A DNA stretch of 38,453 nt from Alistipes sp. GTDB lineage: Bacteria; Bacteroidota; Bacteroidia; Bacteroidales; Rikenellaceae. The DNA lies in assembly GCA_017505725.1 (NCBI GenBank), contig JAFVOR010000064.1:1-38453 (forward strand), written 5' to 3'. Position numbers and translations under genes: made by a program. Positions 1 to 33,945 of the stretch are shown here, one piece after another. Under the pieces are notes generated by a model. That model did not search any database. It was not told the origin of the DNA and was given only the letters and a program-made list of their open reading frames with translations. The number at the start of each line of letters is the position of its first letter. Within the stretch, counting starts at the first letter, position 1.

Positions 1-18
1 ATGCAAAATAAATAAAAT

Positions 19-46
19 AATTCTGAATTTTGAATTCTGAATTTTG
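19..46. repeat. Tandem 14-nt repeat, two copies
   Basis: Two perfect adjacent copies of AATTCTGAATTTTG lie just upstream of the first gene, followed by a partial third copy. The tract is A+T-rich and intergenic. It is seen directly; no function can be assigned. Confidence 0.8.
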
Positions 47-57
47 AATTTGGTTTT

Positions 58-783
58 ATGATCACACGAGCCGAAATACTTGCCATCAAGGCACTTGCGA
101 CCAAGCAGGGACGCGAGGAGCAGGGTGCGTTTATTGCCGAGGGCGAGAAGCTCATAGGCGAGATTCGCAACTCGAAGCTCCGCATCCGCAAGATATACCA
201 AACAAAGCCGTTATTCGCTGATGCAGAGATGGTTAGCGAGAAGGAGATGGAGCGTATCTCGCAACTGAAAACCGCCAACTCGGTGTTGGCGGTGGTCGAG
301 ACACCGAAGTCAAAAATCGCCTCTGTCAAGCCCGACTCAAGCCTCGTATTGGCACTCGACCGCGTGCAGAATCCGGGCAACCTCGGCACCATAATTCGCC
401 TTGCTGACTGGTTTGGAATCTCGGACATCGTCTGCTCGGAGGATAGCGCCGACTGCTTCAATCCGAAGGTTGTGCAGGCAACAATGGGGGCAATACTGCG
501 TGTGCGCGTACACTATACTAACCTCGCAAAATGGCTCGGCGAGCAGCGTGGAGCGAAGATCTATGGCACCTTCCTTGAGGGCGAAAACATCTACTCCGCA
601 CAGCTCGACAAGAGCGGCATCATCGTGATGGGCAACGAGGGACAGGGCATCTCGGCAGAGGTCGCTGCAACCGTATCGCACAAGCTGCTCATTCCACCAT
701 ACCCAGCCGACCGCTGTGGCTCCGAGTCGCTCAATGTGGCGGTAGCAACAGCTGTTATTTGTTCCGAATTCCGCAGACGCTAA
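58..783 (+). CDS. TrmH/SpoU-family RNA 2'-O-methyltransferase
   Basis: Predicted cytoplasmic SAM-dependent methyltransferase that adds a methyl to a ribose 2'-OH of tRNA or rRNA. The 241-aa length fits the family. The N-terminal ~90 residues look like the SpoU substrate-binding domain. The SPOUT knot domain follows, with its three motifs visible: motif 1 around residues 102-122 (DRVQNPGNLGTIIRLADWFG), motif 2 around 188-198 (GIIVMGNEGQGIS), and motif 3 near the C-terminus (IPPYP then SESLNVAVATAV). The ATG at 58 gives a family-like N-terminus. It lies 6 bp upstream of the Maf gene and is probably co-transcribed with it. The target nucleotide cannot be read from sequence; it could be an RlmB-like 23S enzyme or a tRNA enzyme. 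Confidence 0.93.
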   Translation: MITRAEILAIKALATKQGREEQGAFIAEGEKLIGEIRNSKLRIRKIYQTKPLFADAEMVSEKEMERISQLKTANSVLAVVETPKSKIASVKPDSSLVLALDRVQNPGNLGTIIRLADWFGISDIVCSEDSADCFNPKVVQATMGAILRVRVHYTNLAKWLGEQRGAKIYGTFLEGENIYSAQLDKSGIIVMGNEGQGISAEVAATVSHKLLIPPYPADRCGSESLNVAVATAVICSEFRRR

Positions 784-789
784 TAGCCT

Positions 790-1389
790 ATGTTACTGCA
801 AGATATACTGAAAGAGTATCGCCTGATTCTGGCTTCGGCATCGCCTCGTCGACGAGAGTTGCTCGCCTCGTGCGACCTCGACTTTGTGTTAGCAGAGAAA
901 TTCGAATGCGAGGAGTGCTACCCTGCCGAATTGGCGACAGAGAAGGTTGCCGAATACCTCTCGCAACTCAAAAGCGAGGCCTATCCCCACGCACTCGGAG
1001 AGCGAGATATTCTGCTGACTGCCGATACCGTAGTGATTTTGGGCGAGAAGATTCTTGGAAAACCACGCACCGAAGAGGAGGCTTGCCAGATGATAGAGGC
1101 ACTCTCGGGGGCTACCCACAAGGTAGTAACGGGCGTCACCATCCGCACGCAGTCGCAGATAGTATCCTTCTCGGCCGAGAGTCTTGTGACATTCAGAGCA
1201 ATTGACAAGGAGGAGATTCGCTACTATGTAGAAAAATATCGCCCACTCGATAAAGCGGGCGCATATGGTATCCAAGAGTGGATTGGCTACACCGCTATAG
1301 AGCGCCTTGAGGGCTCCTTCTACAATGTGATGGGTCTGCCCGTACAAAGACTCTACTCGGCCTTGAAAGAGCTTGTCAGCTCCAATTAA
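790..1389 (+). CDS. maf: Maf-family nucleoside triphosphate pyrophosphatase
   Basis: Maf proteins hydrolyse non-canonical or pyrimidine NTPs (dTTP/UTP or modified bases) to the monophosphate plus pyrophosphate, a house-cleaning function in the cytoplasm. The 199-aa product has the N-terminal Maf signature LILASASPRRRELL (residues ~12-25), the central TADTVV loop with the catalytic Asp (~77-82), KVVTGV, and the C-terminal KAGAYGIQ (~150-157), all typical of the YhdE subgroup. It begins 6 bp after the methyltransferase stop. Its last 14 bp overlap the convergent RT gene on the opposite strand, an unusually tight junction that suggests the RT block abuts core chromosome exactly here. Confidence 0.95.
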   Translation: MLLQDILKEYRLILASASPRRRELLASCDLDFVLAEKFECEECYPAELATEKVAEYLSQLKSEAYPHALGERDILLTADTVVILGEKILGKPRTEEEACQMIEALSGATHKVVTGVTIRTQSQIVSFSAESLVTFRAIDKEEIRYYVEKYRPLDKAGAYGIQEWIGYTAIERLEGSFYNVMGLPVQRLYSALKELVSSN

Positions 1390-2587
1390 TCTCTCTCTTA
1401 TCATAATATTCGTGTACCAGGCTACGATAGCCCAACTGCTTCATCAGGTTGTAGGTTGTTCGGTAGTTTGCCTTGCTGTGCTTGCCCGTAGCGAGCACTC
1501 GCACCGACTGTTGCAAGTAGTGGTCAAGCGTCTGCAGACCATTGGCACAGTTGATGACAGGGAAGTACCACCGCGACCAGGTGAGCTCGCGCTCCTCGTC
1601 GTTATCGAAAAACTTTTTGTCGAAGTGGCCAATCAGTCGTGCCATAGCTCGCTCGGCTGAAGCCCCCTTGCGCTTGCGCCAACGGAGCAATGAGTGCATT
1701 CGGCGGCGTATCTTGCCCTTCATCTTTTGTATGCTCGAATCGGCTATATCTATCTGATTGCCAAGGCACTTAAAACCCAAAAACTCGTATGCCTCATCAG
1801 GCGAATAGATATGCTCCTTCGACGGATTGACCTTGAGTCCCCGCTCCTCAACAAAGCCCAAAATCGTAGTGCGATACTCCTCCAGCTTCTCGCGTGTGTC
1901 GGCAAAGAGGATGATGTCGTCAGAGTAGCGAGCATAGATGACACCCTCGTTGTGGAAGTGGTGGTCGACATCCATCATATAGAGGTTCGCCAAGAACGAT
2001 GCTATAGGCAGACCTGCCATTGCTCCACGCGGCTCGTGGACAATCTCGTCGTTGTAGATGGCCCGATCATCCGAGAGCATACGCTCGAAAAAGGAGTAGA
2101 GCATCGTATCATCGTGCAGCACCTCGCGCAAAACCGCAAGCAAAGGCTCGACAGGAATCGAATTGAAGTAGTTGGAGATGTCGAGTTTGTAGGCCCAATA
2201 GCGACCCTTACGCACCGCATTATGTACCTTCAGCACCGCATCCGAAGCCCTCACGCCTCGACGAAAAGCGTAGCAGTTGGGGGCAAAGAGCGAGTCGTAC
2301 CTGTAGAGCAGGGAGGACAACACCTTGAGCACAGTCATCTCCGCGGGGGCAAAAGTGTAGACCACACGCTTCTTGCCCGTACCCATCTTGTTGACTATTC
2401 GTTTGGTGGGTAACCCCAACGAGCCTCCAGCTATAATCGCCTCAACGACAGGCAGATACTCCTCGCGCTCGACAAAGTCGTCGAACGCCTCAAACGCCCT
2501 CCAATTGAGTCGCCCCTTCTCGAGTCGATGGGCCAAAAACTCCTCCCACACCTGCTGTGTGGCAAGTTGTTGAATAATGCTGCTCAT
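1376..2587 (-). CDS. Stand-alone reverse transcriptase (ncRNA-linked, group-II-like/UG type)
   Basis: A 403-aa RNA-directed DNA polymerase. RT motifs occur in order: KKRVVYTF (res ~72-79), NCYAFRRGVRASDA (~104-117), the first catalytic Asp in KLDISNYFNSI (~134-144), GAMAGLPIASFLANLYM (~188-204), the catalytic YARYSDDI (~218-225, YSDD), KVNPSKEHIY (~252-261) and YEFLGF (~267-272). A ~130-aa basic thumb-like tail follows. There is no HNH or maturase DNA-binding domain, so it is not a mobile group II intron protein. The G-LPIAS motif differs from the SQ-type motif of diversity-generating RTs. The gene starts 10 nt after a 138-nt folded RNA (2598-2735), as in retrons and in UG/DRT defence RTs, and sits near a TIR gene. 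The ATG at 2587 follows the RNA's terminal stem directly. RT identity is certain; class and defence role are inferred. Confidence 0.95.
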   Translation of the reverse strand: MSSIIQQLATQQVWEEFLAHRLEKGRLNWRAFEAFDDFVEREEYLPVVEAIIAGGSLGLPTKRIVNKMGTGKKRVVYTFAPAEMTVLKVLSSLLYRYDSLFAPNCYAFRRGVRASDAVLKVHNAVRKGRYWAYKLDISNYFNSIPVEPLLAVLREVLHDDTMLYSFFERMLSDDRAIYNDEIVHEPRGAMAGLPIASFLANLYMMDVDHHFHNEGVIYARYSDDIILFADTREKLEEYRTTILGFVEERGLKVNPSKEHIYSPDEAYEFLGFKCLGNQIDIADSSIQKMKGKIRRRMHSLLRWRKRKGASAERAMARLIGHFDKKFFDNDEERELTWSRWYFPVINCANGLQTLDHYLQQSVRVLATGKHSKANYRTTYNLMKQLGYRSLVHEYYDKREINWS

Positions 2588-2597
2588 ATCAGAAAAA

Positions 2598-2735
2598 GAA
2601 AAGGGGGAGGGATTTTGAATCCGAGAACTGTTCTCGGTTCACAAGGTGGTACATAGCTTGGTCGCCTGCAAGACCATCTGTCGAAGCTATGCTGCACCCG
2701 CCACAGGCACAACCCGAGGTTGTATCCCCCTTTTC
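2598..2735 (-). ncRNA. Structured RNA upstream of the reverse transcriptase
   Basis: On the minus strand this 138-nt segment is closed by a perfect 11-bp terminal stem (2725-2735 with 2598-2608, a C5/G5 core flanked by A/T runs). Inside are a 6-bp hairpin (709-714 with 718-723 of the 2-kb block, i.e. 2709-2714/2718-2723, ACAACC-CGA-GGTTGT in the plus orientation) and a compound stem: 4 bp (2645-2648/2695-2698), then 8 bp (2652-2659/2684-2691), then a 4-bp apical helix (2660-2663/2672-2675). A third hairpin has 7 bp and a 3-nt loop (2621-2627/2631-2637). It fills the gap between the 165-aa gene and the RT. The pairing is seen directly; a role as RT template/primer (retron- or DRT-like) is inferred. 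An alternative is a leader controlling RT translation. Confidence 0.75.
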
Positions 2736-2753
2736 GTTTAAAGTTGGTGATTG

Positions 2754-3251
2754 TTACTGCTGCTTGCCGAGAACCTTGTTGATGCGATGAACAACATAGC
2801 GGATATCGTTCTCGAGGTCGGTGTAGAAGCCGAGGTAAGGCACGCCCATCTTCTTGGCATACATTCTCGAAATCAGGTACTTAACCTTGGATATGTGGCT
2901 TTTTGGACCGCCAATCATAATGATAAATTTGAGCTCCCCTCCCGCGTACGCCACAAAGGTATATGGGGTTCCCCACTCCGCCTTGTAGACGCGATGTGGA
3001 CGGCTCTCGTAGAGGGTGAAGGTGTCGGTCACATCTCCCACCATATCGGTCACAGGCACACTCTCCTTGATGGTAAGCTCGGGATACTCTGTGGCGAGGA
3101 TGTTGCGGAAGTAGTCGACAATCTGATCACCCGTAAGATGCTCTGTCGAGGTTACTGTGTGCTCACCCTTGAGCTCGGTGGCTGCGTAGTAAGGCTCCGA
3201 CTTCTCTGCCTGCTGCGGCTTGTTGCCAAACAAAAAATCTAAAATTCCCAT
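2754..3251 (-). CDS. Uncharacterised 165-aa protein encoded upstream of the RT ncRNA
   Basis: Soluble, with no signal peptide or membrane segment. The N-terminus MGILDFLFGN is followed by a low-complexity, charged linker. The body is an alpha/beta domain with an alternating hydrophobic core around residues 85-125 (EWGTPYTFVAYAGGELKF then IIMIGGPKSH) and a C-terminal helix-rich part (KVKYLISRMYAKKMGVPYLG, then YVVHRINKVLG). The pattern loosely recalls small nuclease-like alpha/beta folds, but I cannot assign a family. The gene has the same orientation as the RT, and its stop lies 18 nt before the terminal stem of the ncRNA, so co-transcription is likely. It could be a partner of the RT system or simply an upstream host gene. 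Confidence 0.8.
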   Translation of the reverse strand: MGILDFLFGNKPQQAEKSEPYYAATELKGEHTVTSTEHLTGDQIVDYFRNILATEYPELTIKESVPVTDMVGDVTDTFTLYESRPHRVYKAEWGTPYTFVAYAGGELKFIIMIGGPKSHISKVKYLISRMYAKKMGVPYLGFYTDLENDIRYVVHRINKVLGKQQ

Positions 3252-3316
3252 AGTGTAAAGGTTTTTGAACTATTGTTAACAGATATATTCCAACATCTCG
3301 TGGCTGAATTCTAGTG

Positions 3317-3324
3317 CAAAGTAA
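3317..3324 (-). promoter_or_regulatory. Possible -7 element for the 165-aa/ncRNA/RT transcript
   Basis: The minus strand reads TTACTTTG, one mismatch from the Bacteroidetes -7 consensus TAnnTTTG. No TTTG is found at the usual -33 distance. It lies ~65 nt upstream of the start at 3251. Weak support. Confidence 0.25.
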
Positions 3325-3361
3325 GGCCATATTTCCGAGATATCCTATTGGAGTATACGTA

Positions 3362-3394
3362 TAAAAAAAGACCGCCACCCCGAAGGATGGCGGT
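3362..3394 (-). terminator. Rho-independent terminator of the TIR gene
   Basis: On the minus strand a GC-rich 7-bp stem (ACCGCCA/TGGCGGT, 3371-3377 with 3388-3394) with a CC/GG extension around a GAA-type loop is followed directly by CTTTTTTT. It lies 15 nt after the TIR stop codon and separates this gene from the RT operon. Confidence 0.9.
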
Positions 3395-3409
3395 TGTACC
3401 AGATTCTTA

Positions 3410-4594
3410 TCACTGCTCTATCGTAGCTTTTTGTTTTTCCACTGCTAATTTTATTTCTGCGGCTATGCTTTGGTATTTTCCCATCTCGGCAATCGCTAAT
3501 TTTTCATACTCAGACTGATCCATATTCAATGTCACAGTATTTTCTATAGCAATGAATTTGCCATTAGTATAATAATACTCCTTGCCAATAGCGGGCATTT
3601 TGGCTATCTCCGCCATATAATTATAATACAAACTCTGAAGCACACAGCCCCATCCCTCAAATTGTTTCTCAGCTATAAACTTCTGAGTATCTTGTATTGA
3701 TGGACTTGTAACTGACTTTAAATATGAGACATCTTGCAACGCCATATCAAACATTGCATCATAGAATCCACTAAAAGCCGATATGTCTTGAGGCGTATAG
3801 CCATACAAACCAAGCAAAAACTTCTCAAATGATGTAAACTTAGTATACTTTTCGACTTTATCACGCATATTCGCAATCTCTTGACCATAAACGTGTAAAG
3901 ATTTATGAATTTTTTCCGTTCTCTGTGCTATCTCTGCTTTTGTGAGATTATGCGTTTTTATATATGTATTATACTCCTGCCAAAGTTTATTATAATTCAC
4001 CTGTGTTTTCCTAACCGCATTCAAAATAGTAAATTCCTGTGTCAAGCAAACACAAACATCATAGCACAAAGCTTTTGCTGAATGCATTATTACGCCTCCG
4101 ATTAACCCTAATACTACAAGTATCGAAGCTAAGATTATAGCGAATCTTTTGTAAAATTTACGCATATCCCTATGTGGCTTGCTCTTGAGATAACCGGCCA
4201 AGCGATCCATAGACATATCGAAGAACTCCTGCTCACCTGCTACTATAGCTTGGTAGTTTGGAAGCTCCTCCAATCCGTGTGGCATAGGCGATGGCCACTC
4301 GAAACCAGCCAACTGAACAGGCACAATATTCTTGTTGCCTTGCATTGCCCGAATCAACTCTCGACGCACCCAATCCCCCTCATCGTGGCACTTATCCAGC
4401 GCATTTGGTGGCAAAACCAATATAAAGTCATTGCAGTTGTCGATCACCTCATACAACTGCTCGTTAAACTTTCCTGATCTTAAGGTCTCAACATCGAAGA
4501 AGACCGAATAGCCCTTCGAGCGCATCTTCTCGGCTATCAAATTTGCCGACTCGAACGAGCTTCTGCGATAACTTACAAAAACATCGTATTTCAT
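3410..4594 (-). CDS. Membrane-anchored TIR-domain protein
   Basis: A 394-aa protein starting at the ATG at 4594 (MKYDVFVSYRR). A longer open frame runs to 4762 but would start upstream of a clear promoter. Residues 1-~138 are a TIR domain: DVFVSYRR, then VFFDVETLRSGKF, FILVLPPNALDKC, and DWVRREL with Glu79 in the position of the catalytic NADase Glu. A single transmembrane helix follows (~151-171). The ~220-aa C-terminal part is predominantly helical, resembles no domain I recognise, and would be on the far side of the membrane if the TIR domain is cytoplasmic. Bacterial TIR proteins commonly cleave NAD+ or signal in anti-phage abortive infection. It has its own promoter and terminator beside the RT operon, suggesting a small defence cluster rather than a shared operon. 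Confidence 0.88.
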   Translation of the reverse strand: MKYDVFVSYRRSSFESANLIAEKMRSKGYSVFFDVETLRSGKFNEQLYEVIDNCNDFILVLPPNALDKCHDEGDWVRRELIRAMQGNKNIVPVQLAGFEWPSPMPHGLEELPNYQAIVAGEQEFFDMSMDRLAGYLKSKPHRDMRKFYKRFAIILASILVVLGLIGGVIMHSAKALCYDVCVCLTQEFTILNAVRKTQVNYNKLWQEYNTYIKTHNLTKAEIAQRTEKIHKSLHVYGQEIANMRDKVEKYTKFTSFEKFLLGLYGYTPQDISAFSGFYDAMFDMALQDVSYLKSVTSPSIQDTQKFIAEKQFEGWGCVLQSLYYNYMAEIAKMPAIGKEYYYTNGKFIAIENTVTLNMDQSEYEKLAIAEMGKYQSIAAEIKLAVEKQKATIEQ

Positions 4595-4635
4595 AAATAG
4601 TGATGTAAAATGGGTTAGTACTAATCTATCACTAG

Positions 4636-4666
4636 CAAAATTAATAAATTTGCAGTTATCTTCAAA
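4636..4666 (-). promoter_or_regulatory. Bacteroidetes-type promoter of the TIR gene
   Basis: The minus strand carries TTTG (4663-4666), a 19-nt spacer, then TAATTTTG (4636-4643), an exact match to TTTG-N19-TAnnTTTG. The predicted start site is near 4629, giving a ~35-nt leader before the ATG at 4594. This supports the shorter protein start. Confidence 0.85.
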
Positions 4667-4711
4667 GAAATTGCCCCCAAAAAGCGACCAAACCTTGTGG
4701 GATAAACAGAA

Positions 4712-4748
4712 CCAGAGTGTGTTCCGAAGTGATCGGAACACACTCTGG
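4712..4748 (-). terminator. Terminator of the DUF1501/DUF1549 operon
   Basis: A perfect 15-bp stem (4712-4726 with 4734-4748) with a 7-nt loop lies 21 nt beyond the stop at 4770. The minus strand after it reads TTCTGTTTATC. It closes the four-gene operon. Confidence 0.85.
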
Positions 4749-4769
4749 AGGTATGATGACACCGATAAG

Positions 4770-6857
4770 CTATCTCTTGAGGCGGATGTTGAAGATTGGA
4801 GTCATCTCCTCGTACTTGGCCACCTGTACCTGACGACCTCGGTTGGTTCTGATCCACTCGCCCTTGACAATACCCGAGATATACATCTGCCAATTTGGTC
4901 GGCTCTTCTTGCCCTTGAAGCGCTCCATAGCGGTCTGGTTAACCTTGATGAAGACCATCTTCTCGGTCTCGCCCGGCTGGAACGAAACCGGCTCGAGCGA
5001 GAAGAGGCGGCTCTTCTTGCCCAACACCAAGTCGACATTCTCGGTGAAGCCCTGACTTCTATCGATCATCACCTTGACGGGGATGGTCTCGTCGTTGATC
5101 TTGAGTGGAATATCCTCCTCGAGATTCATATCGAGCGAGAGGCGGTATGGTGCAGCCTCAACCACATCGACGGCCAACTCCGCAGCCGGAATATGGTGGG
5201 TGTAGTAGAAGGCCTGAAGCATCTTATCAACCGGCAGAACATCGGCCATCTCGCGACCATCGTTGCTTGGATACTCAATCTTGAGTTTGATAGGGTAACG
5301 CTTGATTGGAGCCCCCTTAGGCGCGGTGATTGAGACATCCCAACGACGACCACGCACCTTCATACTACTTGTGGTATAGCCACTTGGCAGACCCCTCAGA
5401 ACAAGGTTTGCAGGGCGCTTGAGCTTGCCCGTAATGTCGACACGGAACTGCGAAGTACCACCCGAAGGGATTGTGATATAGGCCGGCGAAACAAATGCAC
5501 TGAACGATGGCATCTGGCTGTGGCGACGCAACACATAGTGGTACTCCTTGCCATAGCCCTGATAGAGATCCTCGACCTCGAGAGTCATCTTGCCACCCGC
5601 TTTGGCTCTGTACTTCAACACAGGATCGGCGTGGAAGGTGATAAGACCCTGAATTGGATCTTCGGTATCATCGACCTCTGCCACCATATTGCCGTGGCTA
5701 TCGCGCAGACGCATAATAGCATCAATACGCGACGAGTTGCGACGACCAATAAGCTCGACAATTACCTCCTCGCCTCGATCGACATTGATGCTGTATCGCT
5801 TGATTGGATGCGCCGCAGTGAGTGAGTCGACAATGGCATTCGAGAAGGTGAGATAGACCTCATCCTTTGGATTGTGTACAAGGCGAGTACCCTTTGGCAA
5901 TGCATAATATGACACCGCATTCGAAGTACCTGTCTTGTTGGTATAGGTGAGCTGATGGAAACCCTCGTTCTTGACCTTGATTGTCGCTTTGTCGTCGGTG
6001 AGATTGACACCCTCGAGCTCCTGCTTCACCTTCTTACCCGCCACACCATAGGCCGGATAGCGGCCCGTAACGAACGGAATGACACCGAGCTGGATGCGGT
6101 AGTTGAAGTCCTCACGACCACGATAGATGGCATCGTGGATGTAGAGTGTGTAGTCACCATCTGCCGGCAAAGTGGTCATAATTACAGGGTCGACATTGTG
6201 GTGATAGTCATCCGAGTAGGCAATCTCGCGACCCTTCGAATCGAGGATACGGATAACAGGCTGGAACCATCCCGGCACCGCATCCGCCATATATGGAACA
6301 AGCTGACGACCCTTGACCGAAGCGACAAGTTTGTCGCCCTTCTTGCCCGAGAAGCGGAAATAGTCGACCTCGCCAGGCTTGACATAGCCACACAAAACCG
6401 CTGGCAATGACACTACCTTATTGGGGTTCTTGATGCTCGAATTCTTCTTCTCCTCGAGGTAATTCGGATAGGATGCCACCTCGAATGGAAGTTTGTTCGA
6501 GAGACCCTTAGGGCTCTGCAGACGCAAGTCGTACAAGCCGCAAGGCACATCGTCGGCAATGGTGATGAGCATCTTCACCTTGTCGGCCAATTGCGGACTA
6601 CTCTGGTCGTTGAGTCTGCGGCGGCGACGACGCTTTGCAGCAGGCTCCTCGTATGGCAAAATCTCGCCTTTGATACCCGGGTGGTTGAATACCACCTTCT
6701 TTGCCTTGTTGATGTTGAGTCCACCGGCCTCGACCTCGACCGTGGTACCCACCTGTCCACCTGCCGGGAAGAGGTATCCCGAGACCATCTTCTGCGCCGA
6801 AAGTGGCAACGCAAGAAGGGTGAACAATATCGCCAATATTATACTTCTACTTTTCAT
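4770..6857 (-). CDS. Exported PPC (pre-peptidase C-terminal)-domain protein
   Basis: A 695-aa secreted protein with a signal peptide (MKSRSIILAILFTLLALPLSAQ). After an IPT/Ig-like N-terminal domain (res ~24-120), a PPC-like beta-sandwich covers ~145-260 (CGYVKPGEVDYFRFSGKKGD, then LPADGDYTLYIHDAIY). Further beta-rich Ig-like domains run to the C-terminus, the last around 580-690 with alternating strands. This architecture accompanies DUF1501 and DUF1549/DUF1553 proteins in planctomycete-type gene sets. No protease or hydrolase catalytic motif is visible. It is the last gene of the operon, starting 1 bp after the DUF1501 stop. One oddity is a run of six Arg (AAKRRRRRRLND, ~74-85) between the first two domains, unusual in an exported protein. 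The role is inferred to be structural or binding at the cell surface or periplasm. Confidence 0.85.
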   Translation of the reverse strand: MKSRSIILAILFTLLALPLSAQKMVSGYLFPAGGQVGTTVEVEAGGLNINKAKKVVFNHPGIKGEILPYEEPAAKRRRRRRLNDQSSPQLADKVKMLITIADDVPCGLYDLRLQSPKGLSNKLPFEVASYPNYLEEKKNSSIKNPNKVVSLPAVLCGYVKPGEVDYFRFSGKKGDKLVASVKGRQLVPYMADAVPGWFQPVIRILDSKGREIAYSDDYHHNVDPVIMTTLPADGDYTLYIHDAIYRGREDFNYRIQLGVIPFVTGRYPAYGVAGKKVKQELEGVNLTDDKATIKVKNEGFHQLTYTNKTGTSNAVSYYALPKGTRLVHNPKDEVYLTFSNAIVDSLTAAHPIKRYSINVDRGEEVIVELIGRRNSSRIDAIMRLRDSHGNMVAEVDDTEDPIQGLITFHADPVLKYRAKAGGKMTLEVEDLYQGYGKEYHYVLRRHSQMPSFSAFVSPAYITIPSGGTSQFRVDITGKLKRPANLVLRGLPSGYTTSSMKVRGRRWDVSITAPKGAPIKRYPIKLKIEYPSNDGREMADVLPVDKMLQAFYYTHHIPAAELAVDVVEAAPYRLSLDMNLEEDIPLKINDETIPVKVMIDRSQGFTENVDLVLGKKSRLFSLEPVSFQPGETEKMVFIKVNQTAMERFKGKKSRPNWQMYISGIVKGEWIRTNRGRQVQVAKYEEMTPIFNIRLKR

Positions 6858-6858
6858 A

Positions 6859-8124
6859 CTACTTCTTCGGTTCTTTTATATCAATAATTTCGTAGAGAAG
6901 TCCACCTGGCTTCTTCTTGTCCAACAACGACGGCAGGATTGGCAAATCACCCTCCGACACGTGTGGTAAGGTGCCATAAGGGTCGATGCCCATCAACATA
7001 TAGACCGTACCGATGAGGTCGCAAGGGCGCACCGGACGCTCGGCAACATACTCGCCGGTCTTGTCGCTCTTGCCCACAACCTTGCCACCGTGGAAACCAC
7101 CACCTGCAACAAGGTAGGAGAATACGCGACCAAAGTGGGCACGACCACCATTCCAAGGTGCCTCCCACTCGACCTTCGGTGTACGACCAAACTCGCCACC
7201 GAGCAAGACGATGGTGCTATCGAGCAGGCCTCGGGCATCCAAATCGGCAAGCAGAGCCGAAACAGCCTTATCGAGGTTTGGCAACATCGAGTTCATACGC
7301 TGGAAGTGCTTCTTGTGGGTATCCCAGCCTGTCATACGAACATTCACGAAAGGAACACCCGCCTGGACCAAGCGACGCGCCACAAGACACGACTGGCCCA
7401 AACGATTCTTACCATAACGCTGACGCACCGAGTCGAGCTCATTGCTGAGGTCGAACACATCGCGGCTGTTACCCCACATAAACTGCATATTGACATCGCG
7501 CATCGAGTCGATCTTCTGCTTCTCGAAAGGCATAGTCTCGAACTGCTTGAGCATATTCATACGACGGTCCATTCGCTCCTTGTTGACAAATCGGTTGACT
7601 ACGCCCTCAACCTCGAACTCCTTCTTCTCGGGAGCACCGCCCGTATCGAACGACTTGTAGGCGTTACCGAGGAAACCACCCTCATTGAATCGGCTGTTTG
7701 CCGAGGTCACCGAGATGTAGCAAGGCAAGACTCCCTTGTAACTATCCTTCTTCATATAGGAGATGACCGCACCAAACGATGGATAGACCACCGCGCCACC
7801 CGAGGTATCGCCCGTAATCATTGCGTAGTGGCCTGTCTCGTGGGCATTACTGCCGTGAGTCATTGTACGAATCAGCGAGTACTTGTCGGCCATAGTAGCC
7901 AACAATGGCAACTTCTGACCAATCTCGATACCCTCGACATTTGTCTTGCAGACATCCTTGAGGTTTCCGTAGTAGTTTCGTCCCGCCTCAGGCTTTGGGT
8001 CGAAGGTGTCGGTCTGCGAAGGACCTCCATCCAAATATATCAATATCACCGACTTGGCACTCTGTGCATAGGCTGCAACCGAGAGTGTCAGCAATAGAAC
8101 TATTGTCAAATAAATCTTTCTCAT
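6859..8124 (-). CDS. DUF1501 family protein (alkaline-phosphatase-like fold)
   Basis: A 421-aa exported protein; the ATG at 8124 gives a signal peptide (MRKIYLTIVLLLTLSVAAYAQ). DUF1501 members are related to the sulfatase/alkaline phosphatase superfamily. Hallmarks here are LIYLDGGPSQTDTFDPKP (res ~29-46), RTMTHGSNAHETGHYAMITG (~91-110), VTGWDTH-like VRMTGWDTHKKHF (~270-282), LLGGEFGRTP (~310-320) and the closing HFGRVFSYLVAGGGF (~330-345). His and Asp residues in these blocks may bind metal. It sits between a DUF1549/DUF1553 gene (11 bp upstream) and the PPC gene (1 bp downstream), the usual trio order. The enzymatic substrate is unknown in the family; a sulfatase- or phosphatase-like role is inference. 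Confidence 0.93.
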   Translation of the reverse strand: MRKIYLTIVLLLTLSVAAYAQSAKSVILIYLDGGPSQTDTFDPKPEAGRNYYGNLKDVCKTNVEGIEIGQKLPLLATMADKYSLIRTMTHGSNAHETGHYAMITGDTSGGAVVYPSFGAVISYMKKDSYKGVLPCYISVTSANSRFNEGGFLGNAYKSFDTGGAPEKKEFEVEGVVNRFVNKERMDRRMNMLKQFETMPFEKQKIDSMRDVNMQFMWGNSRDVFDLSNELDSVRQRYGKNRLGQSCLVARRLVQAGVPFVNVRMTGWDTHKKHFQRMNSMLPNLDKAVSALLADLDARGLLDSTIVLLGGEFGRTPKVEWEAPWNGGRAHFGRVFSYLVAGGGFHGGKVVGKSDKTGEYVAERPVRPCDLIGTVYMLMGIDPYGTLPHVSEGDLPILPSLLDKKKPGGLLYEIIDIKEPKK

Positions 8125-8135
8125 AGCCAAAGGTA

Positions 8136-9548
8136 TTAGTGGTTATAAAGGAACTCGTTGCTGTTGAGTTGCATCCACATAATATCGAAGGCGACCTCGA
8201 TAAGTGGCTGCTTGCTCTCCTCCATATGCTTCTTGTAAATCTCAATCTCGGCAGGAGTTGCGTGGCGCGACAACACAAGCAGTGTGATGGCGTCGGCAAC
8301 ATTGGTGACATTGCCACCATCCAGGTAGATCTGCTGCAGGATCGGACTTCGGCGGATGCGACGCTCAAGCACCGACGAGTTCATCAGATAGAGCAACTGA
8401 CGCGCGGTGATGGAGTTGTTGCGCTGACTCTCCAGCGAGACATCGCGCGACACCTTACCAAAGAGCTCCAACTCGCTCGACGATACGGTGGCATCGCCCA
8501 GATGAGTCGAGCGTGTGCGCTGCGGATAGAAGGTGAATGGCTCAGGCACACGACTGCTGTAGGTGCTCCAGATGCCTGTCACCGATGCCAAAGCATCGAC
8601 AATAACCTCGGCAGGGAGTCGCTGTGGCTCATAGAAGCCCTCAGGTGCCGCCTTCGAGTTGAACTGCTCCGAGAGGAGCATCTTCTTCATCAGCTTACGC
8701 ATATCGTAGCCATTGCTGACGAAGTAGTCGGTGTACTCCTTCAACAACGCAGGATTAGACGGAAGGTTGTCGGCACGCCAATCATCCGGCTCGTGAACAA
8801 TACCCTTGCCGAAGAGCCAATACCACATTCTGTTGACCATAACCTCGGCAAAGCGACGATTCTTTGGCGAGGTGAGCCAATTGACATACTCCTTACGCCA
8901 ATCGGTGTTTGGCTTCGGCACAAGGTGTGTGCCATCCTCCAGCTTGATGGTCTGCCAAGGGAGGTTGCGGTGGATGTCGAGATAGATGATCTCCTCCTTC
9001 CACTCCTTGGTCGACTTGAACGACACCTGCGAGAAGCAGAGGTAGCCATTATCCTTGCAGTTGCGGTTGCCCAGGAAGAGAAGGTTTATGTTGGCATAGA
9101 CATTCTCGGGCGAACGCTTCTGGAATCCACGATAGAAGTTCACCGCAGGGGCACGGAAGTTACTACCCTGCGAGATGATCAAGTCGTGCACCATCTTGTT
9201 GTAAGGCACATTGTTGAGCAACTGCTCGTAGACCCATCGGTTGTAGGCCTGCACGCCATTAGGCCACAGGTTGCTCGGGAACTCCGACTTGATACGCAGG
9301 ATGTCGCCCCAGCGCATCTGCATATACTTGAGCGCAAGTTCACTCTCAATAACTTGGTTTACGAGCTTCTCGCGCTTGTTGGCATCCTTGCTGTCGAGGA
9401 ACTTCACCGTCTGCTGCGTGGTTGGCAATGCGCCCGTCACAGTCAGATAGAGTCTCCTCAAAAATACCTCGTCCGAGCATCTGCTCGAAGCTGCTGCCTG
9501 CATAGCCGTAGAGAGCAGACAGAGTGCGATAATCAGAAACTTTTTCAT
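8136..9548 (-). CDS. DUF1549/DUF1553 domain-containing exported protein
   Basis: A 470-aa protein with a signal peptide (MKKFLIIALCLLSTAMQAAAS). The DUF1549-like half covers residues ~22-180, with FLRRLYLTVTGALPTTQQT and RWGDILRIK; it is followed by the DUF1553-like half from ~225 (RFAEVMVNRMWYWLFGKGIV, then LPAEVIVDALASVTG, and a C-terminal WMQLNSNEFLYNH). Planctomycete homologues are usually longer and often carry a cytochrome c (CxxCH) domain, absent here, so this is a compact form. It is encoded 4 bp after the RidA-like gene and 11 bp before DUF1501, in a single transcript. The function is unknown in the family; its constant pairing with DUF1501 suggests the two products work together outside the cytoplasm. 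Confidence 0.92.
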   Translation of the reverse strand: MKKFLIIALCLLSTAMQAAASSRCSDEVFLRRLYLTVTGALPTTQQTVKFLDSKDANKREKLVNQVIESELALKYMQMRWGDILRIKSEFPSNLWPNGVQAYNRWVYEQLLNNVPYNKMVHDLIISQGSNFRAPAVNFYRGFQKRSPENVYANINLLFLGNRNCKDNGYLCFSQVSFKSTKEWKEEIIYLDIHRNLPWQTIKLEDGTHLVPKPNTDWRKEYVNWLTSPKNRRFAEVMVNRMWYWLFGKGIVHEPDDWRADNLPSNPALLKEYTDYFVSNGYDMRKLMKKMLLSEQFNSKAAPEGFYEPQRLPAEVIVDALASVTGIWSTYSSRVPEPFTFYPQRTRSTHLGDATVSSSELELFGKVSRDVSLESQRNNSITARQLLYLMNSSVLERRIRRSPILQQIYLDGGNVTNVADAITLLVLSRHATPAEIEIYKKHMEESKQPLIEVAFDIMWMQLNSNEFLYNH

Positions 9549-10928: not shown

Positions 10929-11012
10929 GCCCAGATGGCGGAATCGGTAGACGCGCTGGTCTCAAACACCAGTAGGTTCACCCCTGTGCCGGTTCGACCC
11001 CGGCTCTGGGTA
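10929..11012 (+). tRNA. tRNA-Leu (anticodon CAA)
   Basis: An 84-nt class II tRNA with a long variable arm. The acceptor arm is GCCCAGA/TCTGGGT (first pair G-T). The anticodon stem CTGGT/ACCAG encloses the loop CTCAAAC, giving anticodon CAA. The T arm contains GGTTCGACCCC and the discriminator base is A. The CCA end is not encoded. A terminator follows within 5 nt. Confidence 0.95.
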
Positions 11013-11016
11013 CTGA

Positions 11017-11272: not shown

Positions 11273-11307
11273 ATTTCGACAAAGAATGTGAAATTTCTGG
11301 TGAATTA

Positions 11308-11339
11308 TTTGCTAATTCCGAAAATTACCACTACTTTTG
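11308..11339 (+). promoter_or_regulatory. Promoter of the ATPase gene
   Basis: TTTG (11308-11311), a 20-nt spacer and TACTTTTG (11332-11339) match the Bacteroidetes consensus. The predicted start at ~11346 leaves ~38 nt before the ATG at 11384. This rules out the longer upstream start at 11288. Confidence 0.85.
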
Positions 11340-11383
11340 TTATGGCGGTAAAATTTACGGCTGTAATAAAAGCAAAGAAAAAT

Positions 11384-12709
11384 ATGAAATTCTACAACAG
11401 AGAACACGAGATTGCAAAACTCAAAGAGGTACGAGAGTCGTCATACAATGACCATTCACGATTGACGGTGGTTACAGGTCGTAGGCGTATTGGTAAGACC
11501 TCTCTTATTGGTCGTGCGATGGGCGATGAACCATTTATCTACCTCTTCGTTGGCCGAAAGAATGAGGCATCGCTCTGCGCTGGATATTGCAAGGAGATTG
11601 CTTCGAAGTTGGGCGTATTTGTTCCGCCGATGACATCTTTCCAAGATGTGTTTGTGTTTTTGATGCAACAGGGCGAAACAAAAAAGTTTACCCTTGTGAT
11701 TGACGAATTTCAGGAGTTCTTCAATGTAAATTCGAGCGTATATAGCGACATTCAGAATCATTGGGATCAGTACCGCCTTAAAACGCACATCAATTTCATT
11801 GTTAGCGGTTCAGTCTATTCGTTGATGACCAAGATATTTCAGCACTACCACGAACCTCTGTTTGGTCGTGCCGATGTATTGTTGAAACTCAATCCGTTCT
11901 CTCTTTCTGTGTTGAAGCAGATAATGGCGGACAATAATCCTGAATACACAAACGATGACCTACTGGCACTATACACCGTAACTGGAGGAATTCCAAAGTA
12001 TGTAGAGTTGTTGGTAGATGCCAAAGCGTTGTCGGTAGAGAAGATTATCCACGCAGTATGCGATGCCGACTCTCCATTCAAAGATGAGGGAAAGAACCTC
12101 TTGGTCGATGAGTTCGGCAAGCAGTATGGCACTTACTTCTCAATCTTGGACGCAATATCCAACGGAAGAAACACTCAATCCGAAATCGCCACCTTGCTCG
12201 GAGAGAAGAGTATCGGAGGTCAACTCAAAAAGTTGGAGGAAACCTATGAGGTTATCAAGAAGATGCGTCCAATACTCGCAAAGAAGGGAACACAAACTGT
12301 TAGATATGAAATATCGGATATGTTCTTGCGTTTCTGGTTCCGTTACTTTGAGGGAAATCGCACCCTTGTTGAGATGAATCAATTTGAGGTGGTTGAGAGA
12401 ATTATCTTAGAGGATTATACCACCTACTCAGGCAAAACATTGGAGGAGTATTTCAAACAGCAATTCGTAGAGAGTCATCAATACCGTGACATCGGTTCGT
12501 ATTGGGAGGCAAAGAAGGGTAAAGAACAAAATGATATAGACATTGTCGCTTTGCGTTTAGAGAAAAATCAGGCAGTTGCAGTTGAGGTGAAACGCCAACG
12601 CAAAGAGTTCAAACCCGAACTTCTCTCGGAGAAAGTAGAACACCTTAAAAATAAGATTATGCCAAAGTACAACATTGAGCAGATGTGTTTGACTTTGGAA
12701 GATATGTAA
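11384..12709 (+). CDS. Archaeal-type ATPase with DUF234-like C-terminus
   Basis: A 442-aa P-loop ATPase of the archaeal/Bacteroides 'ATP-binding protein' family. The Walker A motif is at residues ~32-40 (GRRRIGKTS) and Walker B at ~102-109 (FTLVIDEF). FIVSGS resembles sensor 1. A winged-helix-like segment (NGRNTQSEIATLL, ~265-285) follows. The C-terminal domain has the spaced acidic/basic pattern of PD-(D/E)xK-like DUF234 modules (DIDIVALRL then AVAVEVKRQRK, ~390-415). The family is common and its biological role is poorly known. The start at 11384 is fixed by the upstream promoter. The gene is AT-richer than the genes on either side and lies next to a tRNA, which would fit acquisition by transfer. 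It is single, convergent with the EEP gene downstream. Confidence 0.9.
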   Translation: MKFYNREHEIAKLKEVRESSYNDHSRLTVVTGRRRIGKTSLIGRAMGDEPFIYLFVGRKNEASLCAGYCKEIASKLGVFVPPMTSFQDVFVFLMQQGETKKFTLVIDEFQEFFNVNSSVYSDIQNHWDQYRLKTHINFIVSGSVYSLMTKIFQHYHEPLFGRADVLLKLNPFSLSVLKQIMADNNPEYTNDDLLALYTVTGGIPKYVELLVDAKALSVEKIIHAVCDADSPFKDEGKNLLVDEFGKQYGTYFSILDAISNGRNTQSEIATLLGEKSIGGQLKKLEETYEVIKKMRPILAKKGTQTVRYEISDMFLRFWFRYFEGNRTLVEMNQFEVVERIILEDYTTYSGKTLEEYFKQQFVESHQYRDIGSYWEAKKGKEQNDIDIVALRLEKNQAVAVEVKRQRKEFKPELLSEKVEHLKNKIMPKYNIEQMCLTLEDM

Positions 12710-33194: not shown

Positions 33195-33425
33195 TTACCT
33201 TTCTACTACATTAATTTTGAATCCACCACCAACAAACAAAACCTTTGCATTGTCATCTCCAAGATGATGTTCAATGACTTTCTGCCCGTTTGCTTTAAGA
33301 GATTTCATAATATCACAGTAGAGTTCTTTTACGCCATTAAGAGCTGCTCTTCTATTCTCATATTTACGAACCAAGCTCGTCGACATGGTGGAAAAATATA
33401 TTTCTACATACCAATTTTTATTCAT
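33195..33425 (-). CDS. Small hypothetical protein (76 aa)
   Basis: ATG at 33425 (MNKNWYVEIYFSTMSTSLVR); an in-frame earlier start lies inside the HNH gene. Its first 8 bp overlap the end of the NUMOD4-HNH gene, so translation is probably coupled. The body (KYENRRAALNGVKELYCDIM then VIEHHLGDDNAKVLFVGGGF) suggests a small alpha/beta protein. I recognise no family. A role accompanying the endonuclease is possible from position only. Confidence 0.6.
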   Translation of the reverse strand: MNKNWYVEIYFSTMSTSLVRKYENRRAALNGVKELYCDIMKSLKANGQKVIEHHLGDDNAKVLFVGGGFKINVVER

Positions 33426-33945
33426 ATCTCCATAATTCACCATCTATAACTTCAACTTCTGACACTCCAAGTCTTGGTGAGGCAGATACAGTTTTCGAAG
33501 TGCGTTTGCTCTTTCTCTTCTTCTTTGGTTTAAATTCCACCCACTCCAGATTATCAGCACGATTATCTGTAAGCCTACCATTGATGTGCTTAACGAAAGT
33601 ATAACCCCCTGGATTAGGGACAAAAGCCTTAGCAACCAGTATATGAACTGCAATGTTTTTTAGCGATTTATCGTCGCCTTTGTGCTTGAGATTTGCTCTA
33701 AGATAATCCCCATACTTGGTACATGATACTGGTCTCTTGTCTGACTTGTCTGCAAATCTAAGATGCCCTAAAAAAGAAACCTCATATCTTCCCTCAAAGC
33801 CTTCGATATCACGCCATACATCAATGTTCGCTTCTTCGCAGATTGTTTCACTGACGAGTTCTTCAGCGATCTTTACATCTTTAACCAAATCGTTAAGGTT
33901 AGTTGCTGTGGTTGCAGTCTCTCCCGCTGTCATAATTGTGTTCAT
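33418..33945 (-). CDS. NUMOD4-HNH endonuclease
   Basis: A 175-aa protein. A NUMOD4 motif at residues ~44-90 (DVWRDIEGFEGRYEVSFLGH) precedes an HNH_3-type nuclease core at ~102-138 (VHILVAKAFVPN, then KHINGRLTDNRADNLEWV; His and Asn ligands visible). A basic tail follows (KPKKKRKSKRTSK). Such proteins are phage or intron homing endonucleases or DNA-nicking enzymes of mobile elements. The first ~40 residues are an unrelated helical segment. It lies 19 bp after the 111-aa gene stop and overlaps the 76-aa gene. No intron boundaries are seen around it, so it is free-standing. Confidence 0.9.
   Translation of the reverse strand: MNTIMTAGETATTATNLNDLVKDVKIAEELVSETICEEANIDVWRDIEGFEGRYEVSFLGHLRFADKSDKRPVSCTKYGDYLRANLKHKGDDKSLKNIAVHILVAKAFVPNPGGYTFVKHINGRLTDNRADNLEWVEFKPKKKRKSKRTSKTVSASPRLGVSEVEVIDGELWRYE

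Follow-up and report, generated by a model that had tools for sequence, protein, structure and literature searches.

The Class 2 defence-associated reverse transcriptases (DRTs) studied so far produce repeat cDNA that is templated by a non-coding RNA (ncRNA), according to the portions of the reports available to us (PMC12632851, PMC13174585), and the UG enzymes have been proposed, likewise in the accessible text, to be bacterial kin of telomerase (PMC12632851). UG26 is mentioned in the available part of a study of cold-seep viruses (PMC10504277), which is its only mention among the open-access matches listed. Among these matches we found no account of the function, the ncRNA or the partner protein of UG26, and the open-access literature yielded no paper on the RT-5 RNA. 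The RT-5 family reportedly stems from Weinberg 2017, and UG26 is said to originate from Mestre 2022. Here we describe a locus of Alistipes sp. (assembly GCA_017505725.1, contig JAFVOR010000064.1) in which an accessory gene, an RT-5 RNA and a UG26 reverse transcriptase (RT) follow each other in this order on a single strand (−); the window, i.e. the whole stretch of DNA analysed, comprises 38,453 nt, and positions are window coordinates unless they carry a locus or contig label. The original prediction had taken the RT and its folded RNA for a candidate new ncRNA-RT system. Its observation is confirmed and its interpretation partly supported, in that a UG/DRT layout with a dedicated RNA is indeed present, but neither part is new by name (the RNA is RT-5, and the RT is UG26 with 529 bits), and the two-part description was incomplete, having overlooked both the accessory gene (2754–3251, −) and a pseudoknot within the RNA. 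We consider it fairly probable that the three parts constitute a Class-2-like UG26 DRT cassette, in which the ncRNA would template a short-repeat cDNA and the accessory protein would have a sensing or acting role.

The RT is encoded by an intact ORF of 403 amino acids (1376–2587, −) containing the motifs DISNYFNSI and YARYSDD, in agreement with the complete, stand-alone enzyme that had been predicted from DISNYFNSI and YSDD. It matches the PADLOC profile RT_UG26 over its full length, with UG27 as the runner-up (122 bits) and lower scores for UG17, which is DRT10 (113 bits), Drt9 (100 bits), UG4 (94 bits) and Drt3a (89 bits). When 40 homologues of the RT were compared with PADLOC, UG26 was matched by all of them, Drt9 by 39 and Drt3a by 31, and the YSDD motif was invariant in the 40 aligned sequences. 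The homologues also share the C-terminal motif LGYRSLV, whose conserved Tyr and Ser could hold a protein primer for the RT. The RT profile has weak sequence matches to chains of telomerase reverse transcriptase (TERT; E 2e-6), and no telomerase chain is found among the 50 VIA matches listed for the RT.

Upstream of the RT on the same strand, with about 10–11 nt between its end and the RT start, lies the ncRNA (2598–2735, −), which measures 138 nt including both strands of its terminal stem. As predicted, it is closed by a perfect 11-bp terminal stem, P1 (GAAAAGGGGGA/TCCCCCTTTTC), the 5′ strand of which (2725–2735, −) pairs with the 3′ strand (2598–2608, −). The minimum free energy of the RNA is −61.5 kcal/mol, compared with −39.9 kcal/mol (sd 3.8) for 200 dinucleotide shuffles, none of which was as good (z −5.65). 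The Rfam model RF03026 (RT-5) matches at 2607–2712 (−) over model positions 1–104 with 77 bits, the gathering score being 45.7, so that the ncRNA is real, but belongs to an already named family. Covariation of the helices, suggested at the outset as a check on the fold, is found in an alignment of 85 distinct homologous RNAs out of 87 (A3; loci L013 and L014 were excluded). The structure of A3 has seven helices with 50 pairs, 40 of which changed on both sides, and compensatory changes are present in every helix; 94.9% of the cells are paired, compared with 44–50% in slid controls, and none of 500 shuffles equalled the alignment in any of five measures. Because the fold of the window's RNA was one of the sources of the A3 structure, the paired percentage is biased upward, and the double changes are the better structural evidence. 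P1 shows standard pairing in 95.8% of the cells, and all 11 of its pairs changed on both sides somewhere; the stem varies among the homologues, and in no more than 13/85 RNAs are both positions of the outermost pair occupied.

The pseudoknot is formed between strand a (GCCUGUG, 2702–2708, −) and strand b (UGCAGGC, 2664–2670, −), the latter being located inside the loop of P4. Across the 85 RNAs, where strand a appears as RCCYGYR on the 5′ side, 98.3% of the cells are paired, compared with 25–41% for slid versions, and six of the seven pairs are standard in all 85 sequences. Double changes were seen for three of the seven pairs, in 17 cells compared with 1.6 in shuffled alignments (0/500 as high). 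Two points are weaker, namely that the number of double-change pairs was reached by 28/500 shuffles, and that two slid versions hold 19 and 27 double-change cells, although they are 41% paired. RF03026 describes the same RNA, and its structure line shows P3, P4 and P5, to which the terminal stem P1, the hairpin P2, the covarying pseudoknot and the tie to UG26 and the accessory gene are added here; the Rfam seed may annotate the pseudoknot without displaying it in that line.

The arrangement recurs well beyond the window. An RT-based search led to 80 UG26 loci that were kept as related loci (labelled L, with genomes labelled G), and the order accessory-RNA-RT is preserved in 79 of them. The RNA, whose presence upstream of homologous RTs had been raised as a check on the prediction, was likewise recognized in 79/80 (76 by pattern, L015 and L017 by eye, and L091 by covariance model); the 80th locus (L020) is cut by the contig end, with the 3′ part of the RNA still visible. 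UG26 occurs in 6 of 180 genomes of the window's genus, its own included, and all six carry RT-5 above the gathering score. Searching for the RNA first gave 7/393 genomes in a sample of the order with RF03026 (six over the cut-off), 24/99 in the genus of G858, 3/15 in the family of G868, 11/18 in the family of G1039 and 9/399 in a further family, f2. Among the 38 RNA-found loci from the G858 genus and the G868 and G1039 families, the accessory gene is present in 37 (L120 is cut) and the RT lies within the fetched flank in 35. As for the other three, the RT of L121 lies beyond trkA/trkH-like genes (L137), L125 reaches a contig end in a genome (G1161) without any UG26 RT match, and L129 has no RT in the 4.6 kb that remain before its contig ends, with two UG26 RTs elsewhere in its genome. 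Eight of the nine f2 genomes have the accessory gene, the RNA and the RT (L153–L160), and the ninth, G1400, has a doubled form. In a phylum-wide sample UG26 was found only in the window's own genome (1/395). It was not found in viral contigs, where the A1 search returned two weak RTs of 25–28% identity with the accessory absent by hidden Markov model (HMM); single-protein scans of genome contigs and viral contigs were unproductive, and plasmids and phages gave only matches below 60% identity, the best near 25% among the matches listed. The named source records are metagenome-assembled genomes of Bacteroidales or Bacteroidia, many of them from ruminant and deer guts.

Several loci depart from the common form. 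In L081 (3953–5200) a stop divides the UG26 RT into two ORFs, with RNA and accessory gene present. L135 (G824; 5614–6879, −) encodes a divergent UG26-like RT (363 bits) with a weakly RT-5-like RNA (R1 49.5 bits; RF03026 41.2 bits, below the cut-off) and no accessory gene in the 14 kb read. A second, partial UG26 RT match covering profile positions 182–394 is located at a contig end in G1039 (L171; contig C23, 280743–281381, −).

The three parts appear to move as one unit. Over 71 loci the distances between the sequences of one part correlate with those of another (0.80 for RT and RNA, 0.73 for RT and accessory, 0.71 for accessory and RNA; permutation P 0.001 each), and the next ORF belongs to 55 families over 66 loci on the downstream side and to 49 families over 69 loci on the upstream side, where the neighbour was taken mechanically as the nearest long ORF and clustered, so that the family counts are approximate. 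On its own, the correlation could reflect vertical descent; it is together with the changing neighbours that it argues for parts travelling together. At the maf gene, an empty-site comparison with 14 relatives, in which 1.5 kb beyond maf was read, gave no RT or accessory match, and SpoU is kept beside maf in five of them.

The accessory gene encodes a protein of 165 amino acids with a low-confidence N-terminal part, which is often amphipathic among homologues, and a domain of predicted endonuclease-like fold. Its best structural matches are endonuclease-fold proteins, although none reached E ≤ 0.001 in Foldseek, and nuclease and GTPase rows are mixed. A conserved catalytic D...(D/E)xK, as in PD-(D/E)XK nucleases, was not found: no acidic or lysine residue is invariant in 11 divergent accessories, and the invariance of E92 and K124 is confined to the main-clade alignment (n = 42). 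The PADLOC profile RTasCOG2852 is matched by 33 of 42 accessory homologues (best E 3.1e-8), but the matches are weak, lie mostly in the C-terminal part and come without a conserved catalytic triad. Comparison of the accessory profile with PDB sequences gave no match, PHROGs and Pfam gave no convincing one, and a search with RTasCOG2852 in 228 genomes was without a match but is uninformative, the controls being silent too.

The cassette can be pictured as working in four steps. The RNA would be released from a joint accessory-RNA-RT transcript and would then bind the RT in trans; the template would be the variable, single-stranded loop that separates P3 from the pseudoknot hairpin; the RT would copy this loop repeatedly into short-repeat cDNA, by analogy with DRT10, DRT3a and DRT9; and the accessory protein would sense this cDNA or act on it, so that phage growth is stopped. 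We infer that the UG26 cassette acts in phage defence. The RNA may be a template and/or primer, as had been supposed from the outset, and the support for this from its sequence is suggestive. The candidate template is the P3–P4 loop (2675–2684, −, including the first base of P4), which is unpaired, 8–15 nt long in the 85 RNAs, fast-changing and poorly conserved; a stem flanks it 5′ and the pseudoknot hairpin 3′. A direct repeat of at least 3 nt is present in 45 of 101 distinct UG26 loops, compared with 27–30 expected under three null models (P ≤ 0.0005). When an A-B-A′ arrangement was sought in the loop with 24 settings, a 3-nt tail ending at column 74 gave 20, 22 and 22 of 79 loops for three loop starts, with 9.0–10.5 expected and 0/5000 permutations as high, and tails ending one column before or after it gave mostly no signal. 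After thinning by edit distance the count was 31/73 compared with 20.5 expected, and 22/50 compared with 16.2 (P 0.025). An A-B-A′ candidate outside the loop, UGCG-CC-UGCG beside P2, was discounted, as it breaks by eye in several lineages (e.g. L038, L054 and L058) and its bases belong to the pseudoknot.

Several observations weigh against repetitive templating by a Class 2 enzyme. Repeats of at least 4 nt are not enriched among the 101 distinct loops; the 23 A-B-A′ cases in 96 loops give stratified P values of 0.00025, 0.004, 0.039 and 0.10 when relatedness is controlled with 7, 17, 33 and 55 groups, 2-nt tails give 0.06 to 0.81, and thinning at an edit distance above 4 leaves no signal. The repeat excess in the loop is thus a suggestive lead that weakens as relatedness is controlled. 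A whole-loop test on segments with flanks gave P 0.21 and 0.999. In addition, UG26 is placed among the Class 2 DRTs from the ranking of profile scores alone, which lowers our confidence slightly. Templating without repetition, in which the RT makes just one short cDNA or some other product and the loop repeats arose by chance, would fit the fading of the excess under strict control, as well as alignment A3, in which neither a poly-U tract, as in DRT9, nor an ACACAC tract, as in DRT3a, is seen to be conserved. We regard this as rather unlikely, since the modest excess persists under three nulls and tandem-repeat cDNA is what the Class 2 systems studied to date produce, as stated in the available part of the source (PMC13174585).

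A simpler role for the RNA would be that of a cis-acting leader, in which the terminal stem before the RT start codon controls translation of the RT and no templating takes place. The spacing is compatible with this, with a gap of 8–14 nt from the end of the RNA to the RT start in 57 of the 71 loci where it was measured. Yet RNA and RT are separated by other genes in some loci, namely by about 3 kb of trkA/trkH-like potassium-uptake genes (named by eye) in L137 (1215–6187) and L091, and by another ORF in L008/L126, and the fold of the RNA is kept there; the gap is of a similar size in L127 and L128, where the ORF was not read. In G1400 (L168; contig C92, 2723–6350) the order is accessory-RNA-accessory-RNA-RT, so that two accessory genes flank one RNA, and the two accessory-RNA modules, which precede a single UG26 RT, have different loops, CGTATATATG and CACACAAAAG. 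Because the RNA is kept when genes come between it and the RT, and is doubled together with the accessory gene in G1400, it most likely acts in trans; moreover, RT-5 is classed by Rfam among the sRNA genes. A cis-acting leader is therefore quite improbable. The second accessory ORF of L168 has 473 amino acids and a hydrophobic N-terminus. Small lipoprotein-like ORFs stand beside the UG26 cassettes of L008 (1667–2146) and L006 (2–415), with N-termini that are alike by eye, and may represent a further cassette-associated gene.

With a retron the locus shares the layout of ncRNA followed by RT, the closing terminal stem and the RT core, and the RNA would then be an msr-msd giving rise to a branched RNA-DNA product. 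The motifs NAxxH and VTG are hallmarks of retron RTs. Neither is present in the window RT, which, compared with its UG26 score, reaches 57 bits with NCBIfam retron_St85 (cut-off 235), the sole retron model among seven matches; there is no retron RNA family among the Rfam matches, and the RNA has a pseudoknot and lacks a long msd hairpin. A retron is thus very improbable, in line with the view that this is not a classical one. The view that this is not a diversity-generating RT is supported as well, in that no ungapped template/variable (TR/VR) direct repeat of at least 40 nt was found in window 1–9000 (seed 12). Hardly credible at all is a housekeeping RT that was domesticated, or a remnant of a degenerate group II intron, against which speak the patchy presence among congeners, the mostly different neighbours, a score of 114 bits with the maturase RT profile TIGR04416 (cut-off 300) and the lack of any Rfam match to a group II intron RNA in the window, the last two also bearing out the earlier doubt about an intron.

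The cassette adjoins a TIR-domain gene of the same orientation (3410–4594, −) with weak matches to ThsB and ThcB4 (Thoeris-type), which is possibly a second defence gene. Further along, an ATPase_2/DUF234 protein (11288–12709, +) matches the PADLOC candidate PDC-S27 with 139.5 bits near a tRNA-Leu (10929–11013), and a NUMOD4/HNH homing-endonuclease-like gene (33418–33945, −) is found amid small ORFs of unknown function near the right end of the window. The window's genome contains a second RT (L002; G000, contig C63, 272–1078) with a weak UG26 score of 40 bits, probably of another RT class.

The RT-5 RNA, the UG26 RT and a PADLOC profile related to the accessory are already named. The association of RT-5 with UG26, the pseudoknot in the RNA, the partner protein with its nuclease-like fold and the duplicated accessory-RNA modules are new as far as open-access searches go. 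An orphan Rfam RNA thereby gains a concrete partner and setting, and a probable three-part UG26 cassette with a pseudoknot, a candidate template loop and a nuclease-fold partner is defined in Bacteroidales. Telomerase RNA has the order boundary stem, template, pseudoknot, and the UG26 loop is placed likewise. A bolder and, in our estimate, unlikely extension of the preferred reading is that UG26 synthesises repeats much as telomerase does, using exchangeable accessory-RNA modules in which each loop would encode its own short DNA repeat to be read by the partner protein; the G1400 RT with its two modules would then produce a separate signal for each of two effectors. Should the cDNA prove repetitive, UG26 would form a further branch of the telomerase-kin UG enzymes, one whose partner protein is of another type.

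Among the described systems, DRT9 (UG28) has a universally conserved poly-uridine template, as far as the accessible text goes (PMC12483538), and the UG26 RNAs are without such a tract. DRT10 (UG17), as presented in the available portion of its report (PMC12632851), resembles UG26 in having, besides a UG RT, a neighbouring ncRNA and a co-evolving protein as third part, although this protein is a SLATT protein in DRT10 and an endonuclease-fold protein in UG26. A-B-A′ is present in 85.0–95.0% of DRT10 RNAs and a repeat of at least 3 nt in 45/101 UG26 loops, the two figures resting on different criteria, and in both systems the loop is variable and poorly conserved, which in DRT10 is the template.
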